Assembly: GCF_035917995.1 (NCBI RefSeq)
Contig: NZ_CP109131.1
Location: 6,262,001 to 6,326,000 of the forward strand
Direction: 5' to 3'
DNA from: Streptosporangium sp. NBC_01755
Lineage (GTDB): Bacteria; Actinomycetota; Actinomycetes; Streptosporangiales; Streptosporangiaceae
DNA length: 64,000 bases
Shown here: positions 26,272 to 49,075 of the stretch, piece by piece
How positions within the stretch are numbered: the first letter of the stretch is position 1
Layout of the letters: every line of letters starts with the position of its first letter
Notes under the pieces: generated by a model
Database searches by the model: none
The model's input: the letters and a program-made list of their open reading frames with translations, nothing else
Told to the model about the DNA's origin: nothing
Made by a program: the position numbers and the translations under genes

Positions 26272-26790
26272 CAACCGGCTTACCTCCTTCGGAACCTCCG
26301 AATACTCTCATAGCCCGGTAAAGTGATCGACTCACTCGCCGGGGAAAAAGTCCATATCTTGAGATGCGCTGTCCAGTACGTGGCGGGGGGCTGGGATATG
26401 GCCTAGGATCGGGTACGTGTTGCGTCCTGGAAGCTGGTCCAGGCCTGCGGGTGGAAGTCCCGTCCGGGTAAGCACTGGAGCGCCCGGTAGCAGGCCCCGG
26501 TTCGTTGTGGAGACATGGCGGGCTGAGCGGGGCGTCAAGAGCCTCTTTGGAGGGAGCAAGCACGCGGGCCGTAGCGTAAAGCGAACCTTGCAGCCTCGTC
26601 AGATTCACAATGGAGAAGCCGAGCCGCTCATGTCACGGCGAAGGCCATGTCCGGTGGGCCTTGTTCCAGGGTCGGTCTGCCAGGTTCTCCCGGGGTATGG
26701 AGGATGGCACGTGTGCATGGTCTGGGCCGGAACAGGAGAGACCCGTCTGACCACGCCTTTCGTCGGGCACGAGACCGGGCGTATAAGCCG

Positions 26791-36927: not shown

Positions 36928-37491
36928 GTGGTGCGCGGTGCGCGTGACTTTGTGATCACCGTGCTGGTGCTCGCCCTGGCCGGAGTCGTCGCCGGGATCC
37001 TGTGGTCGCTGGCCGCGCCGCGACCGCCGTACGTCGTGACGGGCAAGGGGCCGCTGCCGGCCGATCCCTCCACGCAGGCGCTGATCGCCGCCGACGGCTG
37101 GTTCGCCGTCATCACGGGCGTGCTCGGGCTGGTCTGCGGGGTCATCGGTTACGGCGTGTCGCGTGGAGGCCGCCCGCTGCCGGTGGTGGTGGGCCTGGCG
37201 GCGGGCGGTCTGCTCGGCGCGCACCTCGCGCTGCTGGTCGGCGCGGCGGCCAACCTCGGCGCGGTGAGCATCGCCGCCTCGGGGAGCTCCGTGGGGAGCT
37301 CCATGCCGCTGGTCCCGGGGCCCCTGGCGCTGACCGCCAGGGGCGTGCTGTACGCGTGGCCGACGCTGGCCGCCGGTGTCTTCTTCGTCCTGGAGGGCGT
37401 CGCGGGCTACCGCGACTCGCCGCTGCGCAACCCGTTCGGCGAGGGCGAACCCTACGGGCCGCTGTCGTCGTACGACATCGACGGCCGGTAG
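36928..37491 (+). CDS. DUF2567-like membrane protein
   Basis: This is a 187-residue protein with four predicted membrane segments (about 10-32, 62-85, 90-115 and 145-170). The plan is consistent with DUF2567 proteins of actinobacteria: a first segment ending LAAPRPPYVV, a loop of about 30 residues, DGWFAVITGVLGLVCGVIGY, and GLAAGGLLGAHLALLVG. The frame is open from 36817, but GTG 36928 or 36931 is a better start and has GAGGGTGAGGGGG upstream. It is divergent from murA. Function is unknown. Confidence 0.7.
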   Translation: MVRGARDFVITVLVLALAGVVAGILWSLAAPRPPYVVTGKGPLPADPSTQALIAADGWFAVITGVLGLVCGVIGYGVSRGGRPLPVVVGLAAGGLLGAHLALLVGAAANLGAVSIAASGSSVGSSMPLVPGPLALTARGVLYAWPTLAAGVFFVLEGVAGYRDSPLRNPFGEGEPYGPLSSYDIDGR

Positions 37492-37512
37492 TGACCCGGC
37501 CGCCCGGTCGCG

Positions 37513-38901
37513 TCAGAGGGGCGGCCTGCGCGTGCCGTGCCCGGTGGCGCGCTCGAAGGCGTGGGCCAGCCGGAGCACCGCCATGTCGGCGAAGGGACGC
37601 CCGACGATCTGCACGCCCACCGGCAGCCCGCCCGAGGTGAACCCGCACGGCACCGACGCCGCGGGGGCGTGCAGCACGCTGACCCAGTAGGCGGAGCGCA
37701 TCCACGCCAGGTAGTCGGGCAGCGCCTGTCCGTTGATCTCCGAGACGTACGGGGCGTCCACCGGGAACGGCGGCACCTGGCTGACCGGGGCGATCAGGAA
37801 GTCGTAGGTGCCGAAGAAGGAGTCCATCCGCTGGTACAGCCCGCTGCGCAGCCGCTCGGCGCGGGCCAGGTCGGCCCCGGTCACCTCGTGGCCCCGCTCG
37901 ACGTTCCAGCGCACGTTCGCCCCCAGGCGCTCCTGGGGCAGGTCGCCGTAGCAGAGCGCGTAGTACCAGGCCCGGTAGATCCGGAAGGCGTCCTCGGCGT
38001 CCGACAGGTCCAGCTCCACCCGGTCCACCCGCGCGCCCAGCTCCGCGAGCACGGCGGGGGCGTCCGCGGTGACCTTGGCGGTCTCCGCGTCGACGGGCAG
38101 CCCGCCCAGGTCCGGGCTCCAGGCCACGCGCAGGCCGGTCAGGTCCAGCTCCAGCGGCCCGGCGAAGGCGGTGCCGCTCTCGGCGATCGACAGGGGGGAG
38201 GAGGCGTCGAACCCGGCCACCGCGCTCATCAGCAGCGCCAGGTCCCCGGCGGTACGGGCCATCGGCCCCGGCACGCCGAGGGTGAACCAGGCCGCGACGG
38301 CGGAGGGCGCCGGCACCCGCCCGGGGGTGGGCCGCAGCCCCGCCACGTTGCAGAAGGAGGCGGGGTTGCGCAGCGAGCCGCCCATGTCGGAGCCGTCGGC
38401 CAGCGCCACCATACCGGTCGCCAGCGCGGCGGCGGCCCCGCCGCTGCTGCCCCCGGCCGACCTGGTCGGGTCGTAGGGGTTGCGGGTGGCGCCGAAGATC
38501 TCGTTCACGGTGTGCGAGCCGGTGCCGAACTCCGGGGTGTTGGTCTTGCCGACCGTGATCGCCCCGGCCTCGCGCATCCGCCGCACGATCGGCGCGTCGG
38601 TGCCGGGGACGTGGTCGGCGAAGAGCGGCGAGCCGTACGTGGTGCGGATCCCCGCGGTGTCGGCCAGGTCCTTGTGCGCGACCGGCAGCCCGTGCAACGG
38701 TCCCCGCCATCGGCCGCGCGCCAGGTCCAGGTCGGCCTCCCTCGCCTCCCGCCTGGCGCGCTCGGCGGTCAGCGTGACGATCGCGTTGACCTCCGGGTTG
38801 ACCTCCTCGATCCGCCGCAGGTGCGCCTCGAGCAGCTCGGCCGCGCTGACCTGCCTGGTGCGCAGCAGTTCGAGCATCTCGGTAGCGGTCAGGTAGTGCA
38901 T
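37513..38901 (-). CDS. Amidase-signature family hydrolase
   Basis: This is an amidase-signature enzyme with the Ser-cis-Ser-Lys triad: catalytic Lys in LPVAHKDLADT (about residue 75), and the Gly/Ser-rich GGSSGGAAAALATG and DMGGSLRNPASFC segments (about residues 150-175). It hydrolyses an amide bond; the substrate cannot be told from sequence. Absence of gatB or gatC nearby argues against the GatA subunit. ATG 38901 has GGGGGACAG before it. Length is 462 residues. Confidence 0.9.
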   Translation of the reverse strand: MHYLTATEMLELLRTRQVSAAELLEAHLRRIEEVNPEVNAIVTLTAERARREAREADLDLARGRWRGPLHGLPVAHKDLADTAGIRTTYGSPLFADHVPGTDAPIVRRMREAGAITVGKTNTPEFGTGSHTVNEIFGATRNPYDPTRSAGGSSGGAAAALATGMVALADGSDMGGSLRNPASFCNVAGLRPTPGRVPAPSAVAAWFTLGVPGPMARTAGDLALLMSAVAGFDASSPLSIAESGTAFAGPLELDLTGLRVAWSPDLGGLPVDAETAKVTADAPAVLAELGARVDRVELDLSDAEDAFRIYRAWYYALCYGDLPQERLGANVRWNVERGHEVTGADLARAERLRSGLYQRMDSFFGTYDFLIAPVSQVPPFPVDAPYVSEINGQALPDYLAWMRSAYWVSVLHAPAASVPCGFTSGGLPVGVQIVGRPFADMAVLRLAHAFERATGHGTRRPPL

Positions 38902-39012
38902 CTGTCCCCCCGATCGGTACGGCCTGTCGCAGACGAGTCTGGCCGAACGCCGCCGCGTGCCGCGTCGGCAACCTTCGACAGGGCGGTGGGGGGAGCTCCG
39001 GCCCACCTTGTG

Positions 39013-39095
39013 CGACGAGATCTTCGGCCCACCTTGTGTGACCCTTGTGCGACGAGATCTTCGGGCCGACGCACAGGGGGGCCGAAGATCTCGTC
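39013..39095. repeat. Repeated and inverted GACGAGATCTTCGGCC segment
   Basis: Two direct copies (39013-39028 and 39051-39067) face one inverted copy (39080-39095), all within the amidase-ybaK spacer. The inverted copy can pair with either direct copy over 14-16 bp, so two mutually exclusive hairpins are possible. Read on the minus strand, it follows the ybaK stop and could act as a terminator. No T-run is present. Confidence 0.85.
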
Positions 39096-39120
39096 GGCTC
39101 TCCGGGCCGGAAAGCCCTTG

Positions 39121-39621
39121 CTAGCCGTTCTTGCCGATGGGCGCGGTGACGGCTCCGGTGAGGCGTACCAGCTCCGAGGGGGAGGCCTCGATCTGCAGCC
39201 CGCGCCGACCGGCGGAGAAGTAGATCGTCGGAAAGTCCAGCGCGGAGGCGTCGACCACGGTCGGCAGCCGCTTGCGCTGCCCCAGCGGGCTGATGCCGCC
39301 GACCACGTAGCCGGTGACCCGCTCCACCTTGGCCGCGTCGGCCATCGCGGCCCGCTTGCTCCTCAGCGCCGCCGCGAACGCCTTGAGATCGAGTTTGCCC
39401 GCCACCGGCACCACCGCGACGGCCAGCCCGCTCTCCACCTCGGCCACCAGGGTCTTGAAGATCTGCCCGTACGGCACGCCGAGGGCGTCGGCCGCCTCCT
39501 CGCCGTAGGCCTGCGCGTTCGCGTCGTGCTCGTAGGGGTGCAGGGTGAAGGCGGCTCCGGCCTGGGTCAGGGCCACGGTCGCGGGGGTTCCCTGGCCGCC
39601 CTTGCTCTTGCTCTTGCTCAC
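39121..39621 (-). CDS. ybaK: YbaK/EbsC family Cys-tRNA(Pro) deacylase
   Basis: This is a single-domain trans-editing protein that hydrolyses Cys-tRNA(Pro) in characterised members. Family motifs are the early PATVALTQAGAAFTLHPYEHD, FKTLVAEVE, KLDLKAFAAALRSKRAAMA and the G-[VY]-GGISP loop (GYVVGGISPLGQRKRLP). The 166-residue length is standard. The N-terminus MSKSKSKGGQG is basic. The GTG start at 39621 has a -10-like TACGCT 6 nt before it, so it may be translated from a leaderless mRNA. Confidence 0.92.
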   Translation of the reverse strand: MSKSKSKGGQGTPATVALTQAGAAFTLHPYEHDANAQAYGEEAADALGVPYGQIFKTLVAEVESGLAVAVVPVAGKLDLKAFAAALRSKRAAMADAAKVERVTGYVVGGISPLGQRKRLPTVVDASALDFPTIYFSAGRRGLQIEASPSELVRLTGAVTAPIGKNG

Positions 39622-39633
39622 GGGGCAAGCGTA
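39622..39633 (-). promoter_or_regulatory. Probable leaderless promoter of ybaK
   Basis: TACGCT (39633-39628, minus strand) plus 6 nt precedes GTG 39621. The sequence TACGCTTGC before the start is shared with murA. Confidence 0.6.
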
Positions 39634-39708
39634 GCGGCTGGTTAAAATCTACATAGTAAAGGCGCTGTCCGGATAATGGACGTGACGATACCGGGTGGCG
39701 GACCTCCG

Positions 39709-39720
39709 TAGACTGAACGG
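39709..39720 (+). promoter_or_regulatory. Probable leaderless promoter of the his operon
   Basis: TAGACT at 39709-39714 is followed by 6 nt and GTG 39721 of hisD. No ribosome-binding site is visible before this start. Confidence 0.6.
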
Positions 39721-41028
39721 GTGATTTCGCGTACCGATCTGCGCGGGCCTCTTCCCGAGGACCTGCGCGACGTGCTGCCCCGCGCCGACCTCGACGTCGA
39801 AGCCGCCCTGGAGAAGGTGCGGCCCATCTGCGACGACGTGCATCATCGTGGGGTCGCCGCGGTGCGGGAGCTGACCGCCAGGTTCGACGGCGTCGAACTG
39901 GAGTCCACCCGGGTGCCGGTCGAGGCGATCTCCGGGGCACTGGAGAGGCTCGACCCGAAGGTCAGGGCGGCACTGGAGGAGTCGATCCGCCGCGCCCGCC
40001 TCGTCCACCGTGACCAGCGGCGCACAGACGTCACCACCCAGGTCGTGCCCGGCGGCACCGTCACCGAGCGCTGGGTGCCCGTCGACCGGGTGGGACTGTA
40101 CGTCCCCGGCGGCCGGGCGGTCTACCCCTCCAGCGTGGTCATGAACGTCGTCCCCGCCCAGGAGGCGGGGGTGGGCTCCCTGGCGGTCTCCTCGCCCGCG
40201 CAGCGCGAGTTCGGCGGCCTGCCGCACCCGGCCATCCTGGCGGCGTGCGCGCTGCTCGGTGTGGACGAGGTCTACGCGGTCGGTGGCGCCCAGGCGGTGG
40301 CGATGTTCGCCTACGGCACCGAGGAGTGCCCGCCGGTCACCATGGTCACCGGTCCCGGCAACATCTGGGTCGCCGCGGCCAAGCGCCTGCTCAAGGGCCG
40401 TATCGGCATCGACTCCGAGGCCGGTCCGACCGAGATCGCGATCCTCGCCGACTCCACGGCCGACCCGGTGCACGTCGCCGCCGACCTGATCAGTCAGGCC
40501 GAACACGACACGATCGCCGCCGCCGTGCTCGTCACCGACTCGGTGGAGCTGGCCGAGGCCGTCGAGCGGGAGTTGCCGGCGCAGGTCGCCGCCACCAAGC
40601 ACGCCGAGCGGATCACCGAGGCGCTCTCCGGGCGCCAGTCCGGCATCCTGCTGGTCGACGACATGGAGGCGGGGCTGCGCGTCGTCGACGCCTACGCCGC
40701 CGAGCACCTGGAGATCCAGGCCGAGGGAGCGTCCGCGCTGGCCGCCCGGGTCCGCAACGCCGGGGCGATCTTCGTTGGAGCCTACGCGCCGGTCTCGCTC
40801 GGCGACTACATGGCCGGTTCCAACCACGTGCTGCCCACCGGCGGCTGCGCCTGTCACTCGTCGGGGCTGTCGGTGCAGACGTTCCTGCGGGGCGTTCACG
40901 TCGTCGACTACAGCCGCGAGGCCCTCGCCGGGGCCGCCGCCCACGTGTGCGTGCTGGCCGACACCGAGGACCTGCCGGCGCACGGTGCGGCGATCAGGGC
41001 GCGGTTCGACTGGGAGGTGCCCTCGTGA
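39721..41028 (+). CDS. hisD: Histidinol dehydrogenase
   Basis: HisD is a zinc- and NAD-dependent enzyme that oxidises histidinol to histidine in the last two steps of the pathway. The family signatures [43 protein letters not shown] and the zinc-binding Gln/His segment [18 protein letters not shown] (about residues 255-275) are present. [10 protein letters not shown] follows near residue 365. Length is 435 residues, which is normal. It is the first gene of the his operon and appears to be leaderless. A 118-bp spacer with a T-run (GGGTTTTTTCC) separates it from hisC. Confidence 0.96.
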
Positions 41029-41146
41029 GGGTTTTTTCCATGCTTACCAGCCAGGTGGCTCGACGGGTCCCCGCGAGAGCCGCAGGGGTCTGCCCGTCCG
41101 TGCGAGACGTGGCCGTCCGTTTCCGGTTCGAGGTGGAGATCCCGTC

Positions 41147-42232
41147 GTGAAGCTCGAAGACCTGCCGATCCGAGACGATCTCCGGGGGCGCACGCCGTAC
41201 GGTGCCCCGCAGATCGACGTCCCGGTCAGGCTCAACACCAACGAGAACCCATACGGGCCCTCGGCGTCGCTGGTCGCCGACCTGGCCGAGGCGGTGCGGA
41301 GCGTCACCGCCGAGCTCAACCGCTACCCCGACCGCGACGCGCTCGGCCTGCGCCGGGAGCTGGCCGGATACCTCGGTCACGGCCTTGGACCGGAACAGCT
41401 CTGGGCTGCCAACGGCTCCAACGAGGTGCTCCAGCAGATCCTGCAGGCCTTCGGCGGTCACGGCCGCACCGCGATGGGCTTCGAGCCGTCCTACTCGATG
41501 CACCCGATCATCACCACCGGCGCCTCGACCGAGTGGATCTCCGGGGCGCGTGAGGAGGACTTCGGGATCGACCCGGGCAAGGCCGTCGCCGCGATCGAGG
41601 AGCACCGGCCCGACGTCGTCTTCCTGACCTCGCCCAACAACCCGACCGGCACCGCCCTGGAGCCGGAGGTGATCGCCCGGATCGTCGAGGCGGCGCCGGG
41701 CATGGTGGTGGTGGACGAGGCCTACTTCGAGTTCGCCCGCACCGGCACCCCGTCGGCGCTGACCCTGCTGCCGGGCAATCCCCGGCTGATCGTCACGCGG
41801 ACGATGTCCAAGGCGTTCGCCATGGCCGGCACCCGGGTTGGCTACCTGGCCGCCCACCCGGCGGTGGTCGAGGCGTTGCTGCTGGTCCGTCTGCCGTACC
41901 ACCTGTCCACGCTCACCCAGACGGCGGCGCGCGTCGCGCTCGCCCACCGCGCCGAGCTGCTCGGCGCGGTCGACGCGCTGCGGGCCGAGCGTGACGCCGT
42001 CGTGGACTGGTTGCGCGCCCGGGGGCTGAAGGTCGCCGACTCGGACGCCAACTTCGTGCTGTTCGGGCTTTTCGAGGACCGGCGCGCGGTGTGGCAGGGG
42101 ATGCTGGATCGCGGGGTGCTGATCCGCGAGGTGGGACCGCCCGGGTGGCTGAGAGTGTCCATCGGAACGACAGAGGAGATGGCGGCGTTTCGCGCCGCCC
42201 TGGAGGAGATCCTGTCAACGACCCCCTCCTGA
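41147..42232 (+). CDS. hisC: Histidinol-phosphate aminotransferase
   Basis: HisC is a PLP-dependent fold-type I aminotransferase converting imidazole acetol phosphate to histidinol phosphate. The N-terminal [17 protein letters not shown] is typical, as are [10 protein letters not shown] and the PLP lysine in [22 protein letters not shown] 41147 has GAGGTGGAGA upstream; an in-frame extension to 40775 overlaps hisD and is not coding. The last residues (LSTTPS) and the TGA lie in a palindrome at 42222-42241 that may belong to the IscB element, so the native C-terminus may have been altered by the insertion. Confidence 0.95.
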
Positions 42233-42241
42233 GGGAGGGGG
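42222..42241 (+). repeat. Left-boundary palindrome over the hisC stop
   Basis: An 8-bp perfect stem (CCCCCTCC with GGAGGGGG) has loop TGAG. The hisC stop codon lies in the loop. Layout resembles the right-end palindrome at 43919-43938, which has C-rich arm, TGAA loop and G-rich arm. Confidence 0.85.
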
Positions 42242-42561
42242 CTCGAGGTGCAGCGATGCGCTTTGAAGCCCCGCGTTGACCAGCCCTGGCCGTCAGCTCA
42301 AGGAGGTGCGTTTTGATGGCTACGTTGAACATGAGATCGCAGACCCACCGGCGGGTGCTTCCTCAGCCTGCCGCTCTGGAATCCGTGGGAGCAGACACGC
42401 CCGAGGGTGGGCACGAAACGGCTCGCGGACACCGCCTGGCGGCGGTACCTGGTGTTCAACCTGGGCGAGGGGAGATCGAGCGGACCGGCACCCGGTCTGC
42501 TCGGCGTCACCCCGAGGACGCTTCGGCGTCCGAGGGAGCGAACCGTGAGGTTCACCCGGTC
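42239..42561 (+). ncRNA. Candidate omega-RNA region of the IscB element
   Basis: The ~320 bp between hisC and the IscB core holds no independent gene. Several perfect short hairpins are visible: GGGGCT/AGCCCC (42238-42243 with 42267-42272), ACCGCC-TGGC-GGCGGT (42431-42446), GACCGG-CAC-CCGGTC (42483-42497) and GGACGC-TTCG-GCGTCC (42516-42531, a UUCG loop). In known IscB loci the guide RNA is encoded here, directly upstream of iscB, with the guide at its 5' end taken from the flanking DNA. By that rule the guide would match the 3' end of hisC. Precise RNA ends cannot be read from sequence alone. Confidence 0.6.
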
Positions 42562-43869
42562 GTGTTCGTCCTGGACGTCCGCGGCCACCCGCTCGACCCC
42601 TGCCATCCTGCCCGTGCCCGTCGCCTGCTGGCGGCCGGGCGGGCGGTCGTGGCCCGTCGCACCCCGTTCGTCATCCGTCTCAAGGACCGGTCGCTGGCCG
42701 ATTCCACCGTGGCAGGCGTGCAGGTCGGTATCGACCCCGGCAGCAAGCACACCGGCCTGGCGGTGTTCACCGACCATGAGGGGAGCCGGGCCGGACGGTA
42801 TGCGATCCGGCTCGACCATCGGGGCGCACTGATCCGCGACAGGCTTGCCTCGCGGGCCGCGTTGCGCCGGGGCCGCCGGGGGCGGAACCTGCGCTACCGC
42901 GCCCCCCGATTCCTCAACCGCACCAAGCCGAAGGGGTGGCTCGCGCCATCCCTGCGACACCGCGTCGAGGGCACCATGTCGCAGGTGGCGCGGCTGACCC
43001 GGTGGGCGCCCGTGACCGCCGTCCACATGGAGAAGGTCTCCTTCGACACCCACGCCCTGTCGGCGGGCAAGCCGTTGGAAGGCGTTGAGTATCAGCAGGG
43101 CACCCTGGCCGGGTACGAGGTCCGCGAATACCTGCTGACCAAGTGGGGGCGCACCTGCGCCTACTGCGGCGCGAGCGGCGTACCGCTCAACCTCGACCAT
43201 ATCCACCCCCGCAGCCGGGGCGGCTCCGACCGGATCAGCAACCTCACCCTGGCCTGCGTCCAGTGCAACCAGACCAAGAACGCCACCCCCGTGCGGGAGT
43301 TCCTGAAAACCAGCCCCGCACTCCTGGCGAAGATCCTCAAGCAGGCGAAGGCTCCACTGCGGGACGCCGCCGCCGTCAACGCCACCCGGTGGGCGCTGTG
43401 GCGGGCACTGGAAGCGACCGGCCTGCCCGTTCACACCGCCTCGGGCGGTCGTACGAAGTGGAACCGCTCGCGCACCGGCGCGCCGAAGTCGCACACGTTG
43501 GACGCGTTGCACGTCGGAGAATTGGAGACCGTGACCGCCTGGCCGCCGGTGGTCCTGGTGGTCGCGGCGACCGGTCGCGGCGCCTACGCCCGCACCACCC
43601 CCGACCGATACGGGTTCCCCCGCCTTCTCCGGCCACGGATCAAACTGCGCCACGGCTTCCAAACCGGCGACCTGGTCCGGGCGAACGTTCCGGCGGGCAA
43701 GAAGGCCGGGGTTCACGCCGGGCGAGTCCTGGTCCGCTCCTCCGGTTCGTTCGACATCACCACCCGGCACGGTCGCATCGCCGGGATCAACCACCGGCAC
43801 GTCCGTCATCTTCAACGCGCGGACGGCTACGGCTACACGACTCAGAAAGAAGCTGATCGAAATGACTGA
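42562..43869 (+). CDS. iscB: IscB RNA-guided nuclease (OMEGA system)
   Basis: This is a 435-residue IscB. The N-terminal PLMP domain reads FVLDVRGHPLDPCHPARAR (residues 2-20). RuvC-I is GIDPGSKHTG with Asp58. An Arg-rich bridge helix lies at about 92-120. RuvC-II has Glu157 (VHMEKVSF). The HNH domain (195-240) has zinc pairs C199/C202 and C232/C235 and catalytic D212-H213 with N227. RuvC-III is SHTLDALHVG with His311 and Asp314. A C-terminal TAM-interacting region completes it. All catalytic residues are kept, so it may be active. The frame remains open to 42313 (SD AGGAGG, ATG 42316), but that extension covers the candidate omega-RNA and lacks conserved sequence. Confidence 0.93.
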   Translation: MFVLDVRGHPLDPCHPARARRLLAAGRAVVARRTPFVIRLKDRSLADSTVAGVQVGIDPGSKHTGLAVFTDHEGSRAGRYAIRLDHRGALIRDRLASRAALRRGRRGRNLRYRAPRFLNRTKPKGWLAPSLRHRVEGTMSQVARLTRWAPVTAVHMEKVSFDTHALSAGKPLEGVEYQQGTLAGYEVREYLLTKWGRTCAYCGASGVPLNLDHIHPRSRGGSDRISNLTLACVQCNQTKNATPVREFLKTSPALLAKILKQAKAPLRDAAAVNATRWALWRALEATGLPVHTASGGRTKWNRSRTGAPKSHTLDALHVGELETVTAWPPVVLVVAATGRGAYARTTPDRYGFPRLLRPRIKLRHGFQTGDLVRANVPAGKKAGVHAGRVLVRSSGSFDITTRHGRIAGINHRHVRHLQRADGYGYTTQKEADRND

Positions 43870-43918
43870 CCGGTCAGGGCACGCTCGGGCCTGGGCGGCA
43901 CTCCCGCTCCCAATGCCT

Positions 43919-43938
43919 CCCCGGCCTGAAGGCCGGGG
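43919..43938 (+). repeat. Right-end palindrome of the IscB element
   Basis: CCCCGGCC-TGAA-GGCCGGGG forms a perfect 8-bp stem with a 4-nt loop, 50 bp after the iscB stop. Palindromes of this form are typical near the right end of IS200/IS605-family elements, where the transposase binds them as single-strand hairpins. Confidence 0.85.
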
Positions 43939-43956
43939 CATCCTCGGGAGGTTCTG

Positions 43957-44562
43957 GTGAGTATCACCGCACCGCGTCGCGGTCGCGTCGAGCGCGTCAC
44001 CAAGGAGACCTCGGTGCTGGTCGAGGTCGATCTCGACGGCACCGGGAAGGTTGAGGTGTCCACCGGTGTCGGGTTCTTCGATCACATGCTGAACCAGCTC
44101 GGCAAGCACGGGCTGTTCGACCTGGTCGTGAAGACCGAGGGGGACCTGCACATCGACGCCCACCACACGATCGAGGACACCTCGCTCGCGCTGGGCGCCG
44201 CGTTCCGTGAGGCGCTGGGCGACAAGTCGGGCCTGCGGAGGTTCGGTAACGCCTCCTGCCCGCTGGACGAGTCGCTCGCGGAGGTCACGGTCGACCTGTC
44301 GGGGCGGCCGTACCTGGTGCACAGCGAGCCCGAGGGTATGGCTCCGATGATCGGCCCGGAGTACGACACGACGATGACCAGGCACATCCTGGAGTCGTTC
44401 GTCGCTCAGGCCGCCGTCTGCCTGCACGTGCGCGTCCCCTACGGCCGCAACGCCCACCACATCGTGGAGGCGCAGTTCAAGGCCCTGGCCAGGGCGCTGC
44501 GGGCGGCCTGCGAGCGCGACCCGCGCGCCACCGGGGTGCCGAGCACGAAGGGTGTGCTGTGA
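43957..44562 (+). CDS. hisB: Imidazoleglycerol-phosphate dehydratase
   Basis: HisB dehydrates imidazole glycerol phosphate. The two Mn2+-binding repeats are visible: GFFDHMLNQLGKHG with DAHHTIEDTSLALG, and later ESFVAQAAVCLHVR with RNAHHIVEAQFKALARALR. At 201 residues it is the monofunctional form without a histidinol phosphatase domain. GTG 43957 uses GGGAGG at 43946-43951, which lies at or inside the right end of the IscB element, so the ribosome-binding site may be shared with it. Confidence 0.96.
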   Translation: MSITAPRRGRVERVTKETSVLVEVDLDGTGKVEVSTGVGFFDHMLNQLGKHGLFDLVVKTEGDLHIDAHHTIEDTSLALGAAFREALGDKSGLRRFGNASCPLDESLAEVTVDLSGRPYLVHSEPEGMAPMIGPEYDTTMTRHILESFVAQAAVCLHVRVPYGRNAHHIVEAQFKALARALRAACERDPRATGVPSTKGVL

Positions 44563-44590
44563 TTTCTGCCGGGGAGAGGGGGAGGCGACG

Positions 44591-44746
44591 GTGAGCGACA
44601 ACTGGTCGGCCATCGCGATGGCGTTCATCGCGCTCTTCTTCGTCGGTGGGATTGTCTCATTCCTCAAACAGGGTCTGAAGAAGGGCGCGGTGCTGCTCGC
44701 CGCCCTCGCGGCCCTGGCGACCACGGCGGCGGTGCTCTGGTGGTGA
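44591..44746 (+). CDS. 51-residue membrane protein in the his operon
   Basis: This short protein has two membrane segments ([18 protein letters not shown] and [19 protein letters not shown]) joined by KQGLKKG. GTG 44591 has GGGGGAGG upstream; an earlier in-frame ATG at 44552 overlaps hisB and has no good site. The stop overlaps the hisH GTG. Small membrane proteins occupy this spot between hisB and hisH in related actinomycetes, but no function is known. Confidence 0.7.
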
Positions 44747-45375
44747 AGAAGGTAACCGTTCTCGACTACGGATCGGGCAACCTCCGTTCGGCGGAGCGCG
44801 CGCTGGCCCGGGTCGGTGCGGAGGTCACGGTGACCGCCGACTACGAGGCGGCGATGGAGGCCGACGGTCTCGTCGTCCCCGGCGTGGGGGCGTTCGCCGC
44901 GTGCATGGCCGGGCTGCGCGAGGTGCGGGGGGAGCGGATCATCGCCCGGCGCCTGTCGGCCGGGCGGCCGGTTCTGGGCATCTGCGTCGGCATGCAGATC
45001 CTCTTCGAGACGGGCGTCGAGCACGGCGTCACGACCGAGGGTTGCGGGGAGTGGCCGGGCACTGTGGAGTCCCTGGAGGCGCCGGTCCTGCCGCACATGG
45101 GGTGGAACACGGTCAAGGCGCCCGCTGAGAGCGTGCTGTTCGCCGGGCTCGACGCGGATACGCGCTTCTACTTCGTGCACTCGTACGGCGTGCGAACCTG
45201 GGAGCTCCAGCCTGGGCCCGGGTTTGCCGATCCGCTGGTCACCTGGGCCGAGCACGGGGTGCCGTTCGTCGCGGCGGCGGAGAACGGCCCGCTGATGGCC
45301 ACTCAGTTCCATCCGGAGAAGTCGGGCGACGCCGGAGCCCGGTTGCTCACCAACTGGCTCGGGATCGTCGGCTGA
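44740..45375 (+). CDS. hisH: Imidazole glycerol phosphate synthase glutaminase subunit HisH
   Basis: HisH is the class I glutamine amidotransferase that feeds ammonia to HisF. The nucleophile elbow is [12 protein letters not shown] (Cys at about residue 83). The His-Glu pair is TQFHPEKSG near the C-terminus. The early [15 protein letters not shown] is typical. The start is GTG 44740 or 44743, overlapping the preceding stop. Length is 211 residues. Its partner hisF lies 1.1 kb downstream in the same operon. Confidence 0.96.
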
Positions 45376-45393
45376 GTTTTTGATGGGCCTTTG

Positions 45394-45735
45394 ATGAGTA
45401 GGGAACGGGCCAGGCGCAGGGCCGAGCGGGAGGCCGAGCAGGTGCGCTTGGCCGCGCTGCGCGCCGAGCGGGAGGCGCGGCTGGCGCGGCGGCGCGAGCG
45501 CGTCGGCAGGGTGACCGCGTTGCTGCCGGGCAGGCCCGTCCGGATCGTCTCCCAGGGCGGCATCATGGCCCGCCGCCGCCGGGCGCAGAACGGTGTCGCG
45601 GCGGTGCTGTTCCTGATCGTGCAGGTGATCGTCTGGCTGCTGTGGTCCTCGTGGGCGGCACGGTTCGGCGTGCTCGTGCTTTCCTTGCTGTTCGTTCCGC
45701 TTTTTCTCACGCTTGTCTTCGACCGGAGGTCTTGA
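45394..45735 (+). CDS. Basic small membrane protein in the his operon
   Basis: The first half (about 60 residues) is very rich in Arg, Glu and Ala and probably forms a charged helix. The second half has two close membrane segments ([18 protein letters not shown] and [19 protein letters not shown]). ATG 45394 follows TTG 45391. The gene lies between hisH and hisA, and its 3' end holds the hisA ribosome-binding site. No family is recognised; such filler genes occur in actinobacterial his operons. Confidence 0.65.
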
Positions 45736-45739
45736 ACAG

Positions 45740-46462
45740 ATGTCGCTTGAGCTGCTCCCCGCCGTGGACGTCGCCGACGGTCAGGCGGTCCGCCTGGTCC
45801 AGGGCGCGGCCGGCACCGAGACGTCGTACGGCGACCCCCTGTCCGCGGCGCTCGCCTGGCAGGAGGCCGGCGCCGAGTGGATCCACCTGGTCGACCTCGA
45901 CGCGGCCTTCGGCCGGGGCAGCAACCGTGAGTTGCTCGCCACGGTGGTCGGCGCGCTGGATGTGAACGTGGAGATGTCCGGGGGCATCCGTGACGACGCC
46001 TCGCTGGAGCTCGCGCTGGCCACCGGCTGCCGCCGGGTGAACATCGGTACCGCGGCGCTGGAGAACCCCGCCTGGTGTTCTAAGATCATCTCTGAGTACG
46101 GTGACCGGATCGCGATCGGCCTCGACGTCCGGGGGACCACCCTGGCCGCCCGGGGCTGGACCCAGGAGGGCGGTGACCTGTGGGAGGTTCTGGCCCGGCT
46201 GGAGAAGGACGGCTGTCCCCGGTACGTCGTCACCGACGTCACGAAGGACGGCACGCTGCGCGGCCCGAACCTGGACCTGCTCCGCGAGGTCTGCTCCCGT
46301 ACCGACAAGCCGGTGGTCGCCAGCGGCGGGGTCTCGTCCCTGGAGGACCTGCGCGCGCTGGCCTCGCTGGTCCCGATCGGCGTCGAGGGGGCCATCGTGG
46401 GCAAGGCGCTGTACGCGCAGGCCTTCACCCTCGAAGACGCCCTTGCCGCTGTGCGTTCCTGA
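45740..46462 (+). CDS. priA: Phosphoribosyl isomerase PriA/HisA
   Basis: This is a TIM-barrel isomerase that opens ProFAR in histidine synthesis. In actinobacteria the same enzyme (PriA) also performs the TrpF step of tryptophan synthesis. Signatures are [18 protein letters not shown] (catalytic Asp), [25 protein letters not shown] (second catalytic Asp) and [16 protein letters not shown] 45740 has GGAGG upstream. The dual role is inferred from taxonomy and from the absence of trpF beside trpC, trpB and trpA in this window. Confidence 0.93.
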
Positions 46463-46473
46463 AGGAGTTGTCG

Positions 46474-47244
46474 ATGAGTGTCGCGGTGCGTGTGATTCCC
46501 TGTCTGGACGTGGACGCCGGGCGGGTGGTCAAGGGCGTCAACTTCGAGAACCTCCGCGACGCCGGAGACCCGGTCGAGCTGGCCCGTCGCTATGACGCGG
46601 AGGGGGCCGACGAGCTGACGTTCCTGGACATCACTGCTTCGAGCTCTGACCGGTCGACGATGTACGACGTGGTCAGCCGGACGGCCGAGCAGGTGTTCAT
46701 CCCGCTGACCGTGGGCGGGGGAGTGCGCTCGGTCGAGGATGTCGACAGGCTGCTGCGGGCGGGCGCGGACAAGGTGGGGCTGAACACGGCGGCGATCGCG
46801 CGGCCTGAGCTCTTGACCGAGGCGTCGCAGCGGTACGGGGCGCAGTGCATCGTGCTGTCGGTGGACGCCCGCCGGGTCGTCGACGGGCCGCCGACGCCGT
46901 CCGGTTTCGAGGTGACCACGCACGGCGGTCGCCGGGGGACCGGGATCGACGCGGTGGAGTGGGCTCGGCGGGGCGCGGAGCTGGGGGCGGGGGAGATCCT
47001 GCTCAACTCGATGGACGGCGACGGGACCCGGGACGGCTACGACCTGGAGATGATCCGGGCGGTGCGGGCCGTGGTGTCGGTTCCGGTGATCGCCAGTGGT
47101 GGTGCCGGTGCCGTTGGGGATTTTCCCCCGGCGGTGGAGGCGGGGGCGGACGCGGTGCTGGCGGCGTCGGTGTTCCACTTCGGGCAGCTCAAGATCGGCG
47201 ATGTGAAGGACGCTTTGCGGGGGGCGGGGTATCCCGTTCGCTGA
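46474..47244 (+). CDS. hisF: Imidazole glycerol phosphate synthase cyclase subunit HisF
   Basis: HisF is the TIM-barrel cyclase that makes IGP and AICAR with ammonia from HisH. It starts [24 protein letters not shown], with the catalytic Asp in CLDVD. The second Asp lies in the segment [15 protein letters not shown], and [17 protein letters not shown] is typical. ATG 46474 has AAGGAG upstream. It is the last gene of the his cluster. Length is 256 residues. Confidence 0.97.
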
Positions 47245-47299
47245 CGTCGTTCGTTGTTTTTGATGCTGGTTCCTGGTTCCTGTGGGCTGGTCGGGGGCG

Positions 47300-47592
47300 C
47301 GGGGTTGGTGCGCGCTGCGGCGGGCCGGTGGTCCGGGCGGCCGTCTCAGTTGCTGTCCGGTGGTTCAGGCCTCCGGCCTGTTCGGGCGCTCGGGGTTGCG
47401 CTTTTTTATACGCCGCCCGGACCACCGGCCCGCCTCCGCGCACATGTTCCTGTTCTCACGGGGTGCGGGCCGTAGCTGCTTTCTTTCCGGCCGTCCAGGG
47501 GACTTTCCGGTGCTGAAGCCTTCGTACGGGCTGCTTTTAGGGGTGGTCGCCGTAGCTGAAGCGCTGCTGCGGGAAGGAGCTCAGGGTTGGGC
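47300..47592. repeat. ~290-bp repeat, copy A
   Basis: Copy A shares its layout and most of its sequence with copy B at 48345-48631, in the same orientation. It contains a 22-bp perfect inverted repeat (47320-47341 with 47412-47433) that extends imperfectly to about 34 bp per arm. A small hairpin CAGGCC-TCC-GGCCTG (47366-47380) and the string GCGCTTTTTTATA lie between the arms. The last third carries GGTGCTGAAG and CGCCGTAGCTGAAGCGC. No recognised gene lies within it, although a short open frame with partly conserved residues is shared with copy B. Confidence 0.85.
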
Positions 47593-47615
47593 TCCAATGC
47601 GAAGCGGCCGTAGCC

Positions 47616-48194
47616 TCAGGCGAGGGTTGCGGGGTCGATGGTCAAGGGGACGGGGCCGGGCAGGAGGGCGGCGGTGCCGGGAGTGAGGGCGGTCACCTGT
47701 CGGTAGAGGTCGCCGTCGAGTTGGTAGACGTCGATGACGAGGGTGTTCTGGTCGATGATCCAGTACCACTCACACTTGGTGCGGGCGTAGCGGTTCATCT
47801 TGGTGAGGCGATCGCGGTTGGAGTTGGTGGAGGTGACCTCCGCGAGGATCTCGATCTCGTGTGGTTCCACGTAGAGGTCACTGTCGGTGTCGCGCCGGAA
47901 GACGGCGATGTCGGGGGCGAACACGGTGTCGGAGTTGAGGCGGTAGTTGACCGGCCCTTCCACATCCAGGCCCAGGTTTTCGGCCTGCAGGCATGCCTCG
48001 ATGGCGTTGATGAGGCGGCGGGCGATGCGCTGGTGCCGGATGGAGGGCGCGGGGGTCATCACGATGCAGCCGTCCTCAAGCTCGAAGCGGCGGCCGATGT
48101 CGCCGAAGTCGTAGATCATGAATTCGTCGGAGCCCCAGTAACGCGGAGCCCATGGAAGCGATCCGTAAGGCTCGGACTCATGCGCAACGGTCAT
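47616..48194 (-). CDS. Uma2 family endonuclease-like protein (first)
   Basis: The Uma2 (DUF820) fold belongs to the PD-(D/E)xK nuclease superfamily, and members are very abundant in actinomycetes and cyanobacteria without an established role. Residues consistent with the fold are PDIAVFRR (Asp), EIEILAEVTS (Glu plus E) and the later K in DRLTKMNRYA. ATG 48194 is preceded by TAATCT with 7 nt between, so the mRNA may be leaderless. The gene lies between two direct repeats and reads toward copy A. Length is 192 residues. Confidence 0.8.
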   Translation of the reverse strand: MTVAHESEPYGSLPWAPRYWGSDEFMIYDFGDIGRRFELEDGCIVMTPAPSIRHQRIARRLINAIEACLQAENLGLDVEGPVNYRLNSDTVFAPDIAVFRRDTDSDLYVEPHEIEILAEVTSTNSNRDRLTKMNRYARTKCEWYWIIDQNTLVIDVYQLDGDLYRQVTALTPGTAALLPGPVPLTIDPATLA

Positions 48195-48344
48195 AGGTAC
48201 CAGATTATCGGGGGGCCTGGGCGTCTCATAGCACGGTTTCCTGAGCCGGACAGCGTGTTCACCGGCGTGCGGGCTCATGCTGCTGGATGGGCTGATTGTG
48301 AACTCCTACTGATTCGTGACGATTGGGCGCGAGGCGCCGGGCCG

Positions 48345-48631
48345 GGCGTGGTTCGCGCTGCGGCGGGCCGGTGTTCCGGCGGACGTCGTGGCGGAGGTCT
48401 GGTTCTTCAGGCCTCCGGCCTGCTCGGGCGTGGGGGTTGCGCTTTTTATACGCCGCCCGGAACACCGGCCCGCCTCCGCGCACTGTGGTTCCGTCGTGTG
48501 GGGCGCGGGCCGTAGTCACTCTGTTTCGGGCCGCCCAGGGGGCATTCCGGTGCTGAAGCTCTCGTACGGGCTGCTCTGGTGGTCGCCGTAGCTGAAGCGC
48601 CTCTGAGGAAAGGAGCTCAGGGCTGGGCAAC
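48345..48631. repeat. ~290-bp repeat, copy B
   Basis: Copy B is the second copy of the element at 47300-47592. Its inverted repeat (48363-48379 with about 48457-48473) differs from copy A at one base on each arm, G to T on the left and C to A on the right, and these paired changes keep the stem. The CAGGCC-TCC-GGCCTG hairpin (48408-48422) and GCGCTTTTTATA are conserved. Confidence 0.85.
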
Positions 48632-48735
48632 AGGCTCTCCCCGCCGGCCGACAGTGTCGTCGCGCCCCTGGTCGGTGAATGATCTGCTCGGGGGATGTGT
48701 GCTGGCGTGGCCGGGCATTCCGCATGGGAATCGGC

Positions 48736-49075
48736 TCAGGCGATGATGGAGAGGGTACGGAGTCGTTCGTCCAGGTCGTGGACGTGTCTGTTGTCCTCCC
48801 ACGGTTGGAGGCGGGTGCGGGCCTGGCGTATGGAGTTGGCGAGTCTGGCGGAGCTGTGGCCGATGACGATCTGGGCGGCTTCGCCGATCATCGCGGCGGC
48901 TGCGGGGATCTCGCGTTTCTGGATCAGTGCGGTCGCGTATCGCAGTTGAAGGATGCCTCGTTCTCGGAGGAGACCGGTGCCCATTGTCGCGATTCGTTGC
49001 TGTAGTTCAGAGATCGCTTGGTCGGATCGTTTGAGTTCGACGAGGCAAAACGTTCCGTAGGAGCCGATGGTCTAC
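48736..49075 (-). pseudogene. 3' remnant of a TPR-containing transcriptional regulator
   Basis: Reading from a TAG just above 49075, the frame gives TIGSYGTFCLVELKRS...ALIQKREIPAAAAMIGEAAQIV...SIRQARTRLQPWEDNRHVHDLDERLRTL. This strongly resembles the C-terminal end of the long actinobacterial HTH-TPR regulators, which usually finish with an Arg-rich R-x-L-x-P-W-x-x-N segment. The DNA-binding half is missing. ATG 48984 is the only start in the open part. The fragment is flanked by repeat B and a second Uma2 gene. Confidence 0.65.

Follow-up and report, generated by a model that had tools for sequence, protein, structure and literature searches.

Start-Codon Landing of HEARO-Type IscB Elements, Seen at Base Resolution at the hisC-hisB Junction of a Streptosporangium Genome

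Introduction

IscB proteins are relatives of the ancestors of Cas9, and in their elements the guide is host sequence lying 5′ of the RNA scaffold, with a length of ~16–20 nt. Weinberg and colleagues are said to have given ATGA and GTGA as HEARO integration sites in 2009. The target-adjacent motif (TAM) of DtIsrB is NTGA (PMC9581776), and few HEARO nucleases are accompanied by TnpA (PMC9755519). For TnpB, cutting of the donor joint, by which its element would be restored, has been proposed (PMC8612924), and TnpB is reported as a drive in plasmids (PMC11870625). None of the titles and abstracts among the matches listed concerned IscB/HEARO insertion at start codons, a weak sign that no such account exists, and none of the matches listed concerned guides as ribosome-binding leaders or a Shine-Dalgarno (SD) sequence in the right end.

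Here we describe an IscB element from Streptosporangium sp. NBC_01755, whose genome comprises 8.15 Mb in a single contig. It lies in a 64,000-nucleotide stretch (positions 6,262,001–6,326,000 of NZ_CP109131.1), hereafter the window, to which all coordinates refer unless a locus is named. The main interest of the element is that it displays at base resolution a habit of landing at start codons.

Results

The Window Encodes an Intact IscB

The open reading frame at 42562–43869 (+) is complete, starts with GTG, and encodes 435 residues. Pfam searches identified an RRXRR domain (PF14239, E = 4e-65, residues 2–180) and an HNH domain (PF01844, E = 4.1e-13, residues 199–241) inserted in RuvC, and the top matches among solved structures are IscBs (TbaIscB, E = 6.9e-41; HfmIscB, E = 2e-28). 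The protein is thus placed in IscB both by these structures and by the profile search against IscB-type families that an earlier note, made from the sequence alone, had proposed as a check on its own assignment. The RuvC catalytic residues named there (Asp58 in RuvC-I, Glu157 in RuvC-II, His311 and Asp314 in RuvC-III) are present, as are the HNH/zinc residues His213, Asn236, and Cys199/202/232/235, the last of which form the two Cys pairs that it had described. In an alignment of 51 full-length proteins, Asp58 is conserved in 48, Glu157 and Cys202 in 50, and His213, His311, Asp314, and the other Cys residues in all 51. With the frame full length and the catalytic residues in place, the ORF is an intact IscB, predicted to be an RNA-guided HNH/RuvC endonuclease. 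The N-terminal motif, which had been read as PLMP, is in fact P-L-D-P (residues 10–13); Pro10 and Pro13 occur in 51/51 aligned relatives and Leu11 in 49/51, and the third position of this PLxP motif is Met in 21/51 and Asp in 17/51.

The Element Lies Exactly before the hisB Start Codon

The gene order around the element is hisD-hisC-[element]-hisB-hisH-hisA-hisF, where hisD, hisH, hisA, and hisF were identified by eye from translations; hisB (43957–44562, +) encodes an IGPD domain (Pfam, E = 7.5e-60) and hisC an aminotransferase domain. The earlier claim of a location within a his operon, in the same orientation, is borne out by the Pfam domains of HisB and HisC, and the comparison with near relatives that had been suggested alongside it revealed an uninterrupted hisC-hisB junction in 15/15 other genomes of the genus, such that 1/16 carries the element there. 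In the 15 congeners hisC and hisB share a 4-nt GTGA stop/start overlap (e.g., ...GAGATCCTGTGAGC...), and the occupied site in the window genome reads ...GAGATCCT[GTCAAC...TTCTG]GTGAGTATC..., with the element placed exactly before the GTGA of the overlap, i.e., directly 5′ of the hisB start codon. This GTGA (43957–43960, +), of which GTG is the start codon, is the target seen in the empty sites and in the alignment of the six genomic copies, and is the predicted TAM.

The coordinates 42562–43869 assigned earlier hold for the ORF and fall short of the mobile element, which spans 42214–43956 (+) as judged from the six-copy alignment, the empty sites in 15 congeners, and the same boundaries at two other gene starts; at the left boundary, the first G may equally be on the host side. 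The element comprises a HEARO/omega-RNA, then iscB, then a right-end hairpin, begins with GTCAAC... and ends with ...GGGAGGTTCTG, and has no visible target duplication. Its hairpin ends, fixed short target at one end, and lack of a target duplication are traits of the IS200/IS605 superfamily; a further trait of that superfamily, a tnpA of its own, is absent.

The hisC gene (41147–42232, +; aminotransferase domain, start placed by eye) now ends inside the element. Its last codons read CTG TCA ACG ACC CCC TCC TGA, five residues longer than in the congeners, which end ...TG TGA; all codons after the CTG (S-T-T-P-S-stop; 42215–42232, +) come from the left end. The right end contains a hairpin, CCCCGGCC-TGAA-GGCCGGGG (43919–43938, +; also supported by the six-copy alignment), with no T run after it, and a GGGAGG SD-like sequence (43946–43951, +) 5 nt before the GTG, for which the calculated anti-SD duplex is −11.0 kcal/mol, compared with −3.0 kcal/mol for shuffled sequence. 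We considered whether the insertion damages hisC or hisB and rejected this, both reading frames being intact. A terminator role for the right end was likewise rejected, as it has no T run and the sole terminator-like match in 42000–44100 is on the opposite strand, inside iscB. Elsewhere in the window, far from the IscB element, there is a match to a Group II intron domain (RF02003, E = 5.1e-21) at 26445–26579 (+).

The omega-RNA and the Predicted Guide

A HEARO/omega-RNA scaffold was identified at 42214–42480 (+) by its match to Rfam RF02033 (81.9 bits, E = 1.8e-16). The score is 1.1 bits under the gathering score of the family, so the window omega-RNA is absent from a scan at that curated cut-off; over the six genome copies, scores range from 74 to 98 bits, with two (the window copy and L006) under the gathering score. 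Similarity among the six copies ends abruptly at GTCAAC, the upstream flanks being unrelated, as a guide taken from the host flank would require, and nothing is shared downstream of the RTGA adjoining the right end.

The predicted guide segment (42194–42213, +) consists of the 20 nt of native hisC sequence that abut the left end of the element, a flank that differs from those of the other five copies. At the empty site, 4/15 congeners carry exactly these 20 nt followed by GTGA; the remaining 11/15 have 2–5 mismatches in 16 nt of the predicted guide. Across the window genome, 16 nt of the guide plus GTGA has no match with two or fewer mismatches besides the occupied site, and matches with three mismatches occur at four places. 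Within the predicted guide region lies the GGAGG that is found ahead of hisB in the 15 congeners, where the operon is uninterrupted. In the predicted minimum-energy fold of 42198–42561 this GGAGG pairs with a CCTCC of the left-end hairpin, a pairing that would compete with the omega-RNA fold.

Because the predicted guide is upstream of the element, its promoter must be upstream too. A simple consensus scan of 42000–44100 found no sigma70-like promoter, which in an actinobacterium is weak evidence. The view of the earlier note that iscB expression would ride on his transcription remains a proposal, if a better founded one, from the arrangement of the sequence.

Further Copies in the Genome Have Been Kept under Selection, and Some Abut Gene Starts

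The genome carries six full-length copies (the window copy and five others, with 77–100% protein identity), and therefore the window IscB is not a chance occurrence. Across ten pairwise comparisons of copies, of which six are between copies of the window genome, dN/dS is 0.21–0.32; these values imply that the protein has been maintained under selection. The closest named match is from S. amethystogenes (92%), and the relatives are, by name, Streptosporangium; among 60 relatives, 46 of the 52 genomes of good quality have some match, many of these being merely distant HNH matches. The genome also contains a remnant and an internally deleted copy. The latter (G000:C1:4841252-4841590, corresponding to L009 2902-3653) retains both ends, which are 96–99% identical to L004-type ends, and, though short and non-coding, this derivative might still be mobilised.

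Empty-site comparisons place two further copies exactly before start codons, those of an OsmC-like gene (L004 versus L162) and of a zf-UBP gene (L005 versus L146, in which the congener reads ATGC). At a Cu-oxidase_4 gene (L003 versus L130–L144), ~14 nt of the leader are missing beside the left end; the lost leader includes TAAGGT/TAGGGT, resembling the −10 box of a leaderless gene in the congeners. For two of the six copies (L002 and L006), no gene could be recognised at the RTGA.

Related Elements Land at Start Codons

We compared 55 loci from named genomes, plus loci from relatives. By a strict rule the left end was visible in 48 of 75 loci, a set that includes five duplicates and several truncated loci, and all but one of these ends read GTCAAC or GTCAAT. 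For the right ends, five duplicates (L061, L063, L064, L066, and L097) were removed to give 58 non-redundant loci, seven of which were excluded for an unclear right end (L039, L041, L067, L076, L079, L099, and L118), leaving 51 elements; three of these are broken elements with the right part only (L042, L112, and L114), and L068 and L114 probably descend from a single insertion. The right ends were hand-picked from a list made with [AG]TGA, so the motif is present by construction; the gene start behind the motif is not. In 44/51 elements the right-end RTGA begins an ORF that is 80 residues or longer, compared with 34.9% of 1361 control RTGA sites taken from these flanks (binomial p = 5e-14), the controls including intragenic sites, so that the comparison does not demonstrate a preference over neutral intergenic sites; in the other 7/51 elements the downstream ORF is short. 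When right ends were called by a fully automatic rule, 36/58 loci yielded one; the ORF reached 80 residues or more in 28 of these, and 31 agreed with the hand-picked set. Genes opened in this way include dnaN, uppS, lptA, smpB, tsaD, yicC, and those for homoserine dehydrogenase, serine dehydratase, and an epimerase.

Among the proteins encoded by these ORFs, the N-terminal-most Pfam domain begins at profile position 5 or earlier in 37/44, compared with 5/20 control ORFs picked at random from 50 prepared (Fisher p = 8e-6). In 7 of the 37 (L034, L037, L042, L070, L085, L086, and L096) the domain starts after residue 65 and hence carries little information on the gene start; a stricter count in which the domain must also lie within the first 65 residues gives 30/44 versus 3/20 (p = 8e-5). 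The exceptions are L002, L033, and L038, which have no match, L094, with a single sub-threshold match, and L068, L081, and L114, in which the match starts later in the profile.

Plasmid elements annotated by others afford a second comparison. From 40 matches listed (52 records) 20 were examined, chiefly those with an annotated iscB, and 19 are non-redundant (L203 duplicates L202). Right ends coincide with an annotated start in 8/19 loci, compared with 10/227 other RTGA sites (p = 7e-6); one further right end is 3 nt off an annotated start and 10/19 do not abut one. The gene table of the plasmid collection is incomplete. At two of the eight (L204 and L206) the right end reads ATGATGA, so that the ATG annotated as the start may belong to the element itself, and without them the count is 6/19 (p = 5e-4). 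Tandem start codons also arise at Marinobacter right ends (e.g., L102), where a terminal ATG directly precedes the host ATGA. Plasmids from two distant phyla carry iscB in the interval from parA to parB, at the start codon annotated for parB (L210, Deinococcus; L214, the cyanobacterium Trichormus), and on a Polaromonas plasmid it lies behind a gene annotated as pilin. As far as can be read from sequence, these comparisons show that the HEARO-type IscB family has a habit of landing at start codons.

At the left end, a stop codon at +19, in frame with the TGA of the target, occurs in 32 of 41 left ends; about four of the 41 (L090, L092, L096, and L103) were probably mispicked by the simple GTCAA rule. 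The stop may serve to end an overlapping gene upstream, or may reflect only the hairpin loop. We rejected its interpretation as a selected “stop cassette”, since right-end hairpins have the same TGAA/TAAA loop and structure alone may explain it.

Some Lineages Supply a New Shine-Dalgarno Sequence

Anti-SD binding was calculated for the 15 nt ending 3 nt before the start codon and compared with shuffled sequence. For 18 right ends of the Streptosporangium/Acrocarpospora type the mean is −8.7 kcal/mol versus −2.7 kcal/mol shuffled, and 16/18 lie at or under the lowest 5% of shuffles; for the other 33 right ends the values are −1.5 and −1.2 kcal/mol. Within these 33, no SD stands out in right ends from Gammaproteobacteria and Nocardiopsis, so translational repair is not general, and the right end supplies an SD in some cyanobacteria (L085 and L089). 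In the left flanks, positions −13 to −8 are rich in purines (anti-SD −5.1 versus −3.5 kcal/mol shuffled, n = 41), as would be expected of the displaced native SD.

Transposases and TnpB Elements

None of the genome's ten Y1 transposase matches lies inside the window element. In a search for a transposase acting in trans, five of the ten loci were compared: a single one, a tnpA-tnpB element at ~1.963 Mb, shows weak end similarity (82% across 39 nt), and since its kind ends at CTGAA the comparison does not identify it as the mobiliser. A tnpA-tnpB element at ~2520–4231 of L128 has an end like the IscB left end, is found at the stop codon of a gene resembling thiD (named by eye), and contributes S-T-stop from its left end.

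As a control, 41 TnpB matches in the genus were reduced to 30 loci, in 23 of which a right end was visible and read by eye. The hairpin ends are similar to those of the IscB elements, and the right ends read CTGAA in 20, TTGAA in two, and are unclear in one, with RTGA at none of the 23. The start-codon/RTGA habit is not general to all IS605-like elements.

Discussion

We consider the window element to be a non-autonomous IS200/IS605-type OMEGA/HEARO element with a complete IscB, one that lands preferentially at start codons, relies on host transcription, and is predicted to cut empty alleles for self-retention; we put the probability of this reading at about three in four. The his transcript would carry the guide, omega-RNA, and iscB together, and IscB would bind the omega-RNA with its hisC-derived guide. 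The complex may then cut an unoccupied hisC-hisB junction, where the guide match lies beside the predicted GTGA TAM, either in incoming DNA or, once the element has been excised, on the sister chromosome; the element would be copied back as the cut empty site is repaired. With the predicted guide lying beyond the left end of the element, at the 5′ terminus of the RNA, its transcription would have to begin in host DNA; landing at a start codon would supply a host promoter for a guide that the element could not transcribe from within its ends, and would keep the host gene translatable.

That the nuclease is no longer in use at hisC-hisB, the element being an inert passenger of a benign landing without homing or retention, is unlikely in our judgement: occupation of the site in a single genus genome would fit it, as would the deleted copy and the remnant, by which decay evidently happens, and it is opposed by the full-length frame, the intact catalytic residues, the omega-RNA match, and the dN/dS values between copies. 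Recruitment of IscB by the host as a regulator of the his operon is very improbable. Such a role would accord with the shared orientation within the operon and with a predicted guide that matches the operon's own sequence; yet the site is occupied in one genome of 16, five further full-length copies lie at unrelated places, and the RuvC and HNH residues are intact, unlike those of the known nuclease-dead recruited relatives.

A broader proposal takes HEARO-type IscB elements in general to be start-codon dwellers, in which the RTGA target/TAM would contain the host start, the guide would be the ribosome-binding leader, the host promoter would transcribe the guide, and the right end would give a new SD in some lineages. 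The nuclease would then be directed by its guide to the start of a gene that is expressed and in many cases essential, with every empty allele a target. We would give this proposal even odds. The habit might instead reflect a transposase with an RTGA target and selection against broken genes, with guide expression and the right-end SD playing no part, a possibility that we hold to be real if somewhat the less probable way for the matter to fall out. RTGA alone favours start codons, many right ends have no outstanding SD, the controls contain intragenic sites, and the different target of the genus TnpB elements fits transposase specificity; a target preference of this kind has more difficulty with the size of the enrichment, among plasmids as among the 51 elements, and with the strong SD kept in 16/18 related right ends.

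Persistence of IscB elements, mostly without their own transposase, is the problem that start-codon landing would address, and it would solve two difficulties, transcription of an external guide and survival of the host gene. Were the start-codon-dweller proposal correct, RTGA would be the TAM in nature, ribosome-binding leaders would serve as natural guides, and the places to look for active IscBs would follow. A clean test is offered by the hisC-hisB junction, which is empty in 15 related genomes, four of them matching the guide perfectly.

Among known systems, the element is closest to the IscB/OMEGA elements (HEARO RNA and ORF, RF02033), with which it shares the PLxP N-terminus, the HNH-split RuvC, the Arg-rich RRXRR, the omega-RNA directly upstream, and host flank at the position where the 5′ guide is predicted; it is distinct in that its exact host site is resolved, the guide place being the end of hisC, the TAM-like GTGA the start of hisB, and an SD lying in the right end. 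An omega-RNA, RuvC, and an NTGA TAM (predicted for the window element) are shared with IsrB (DtIsrB; PMC9581776), which lacks the HNH domain that the window protein has. ISDra2-type TnpA/TnpB elements have in common with it hairpin ends, no target duplication, a flank-derived guide (predicted for the window element), and proposed donor-joint cutting (PMC8612924), but TnpB RNA comes from the right end, and the TnpB elements of the genus end at CTGAA/TTGAA, unlike the window element at RTGA. With Cas9 the window protein shares RuvC and HNH and, by prediction, an RNA guide; the REC lobe of Cas9 is missing, the 435 residues being too few to hold one and filled by RRXRR, HNH, and RuvC-III; no CRISPR-like repeat array occurs in 37000–49000, and the guide position is occupied by hisC sequence.
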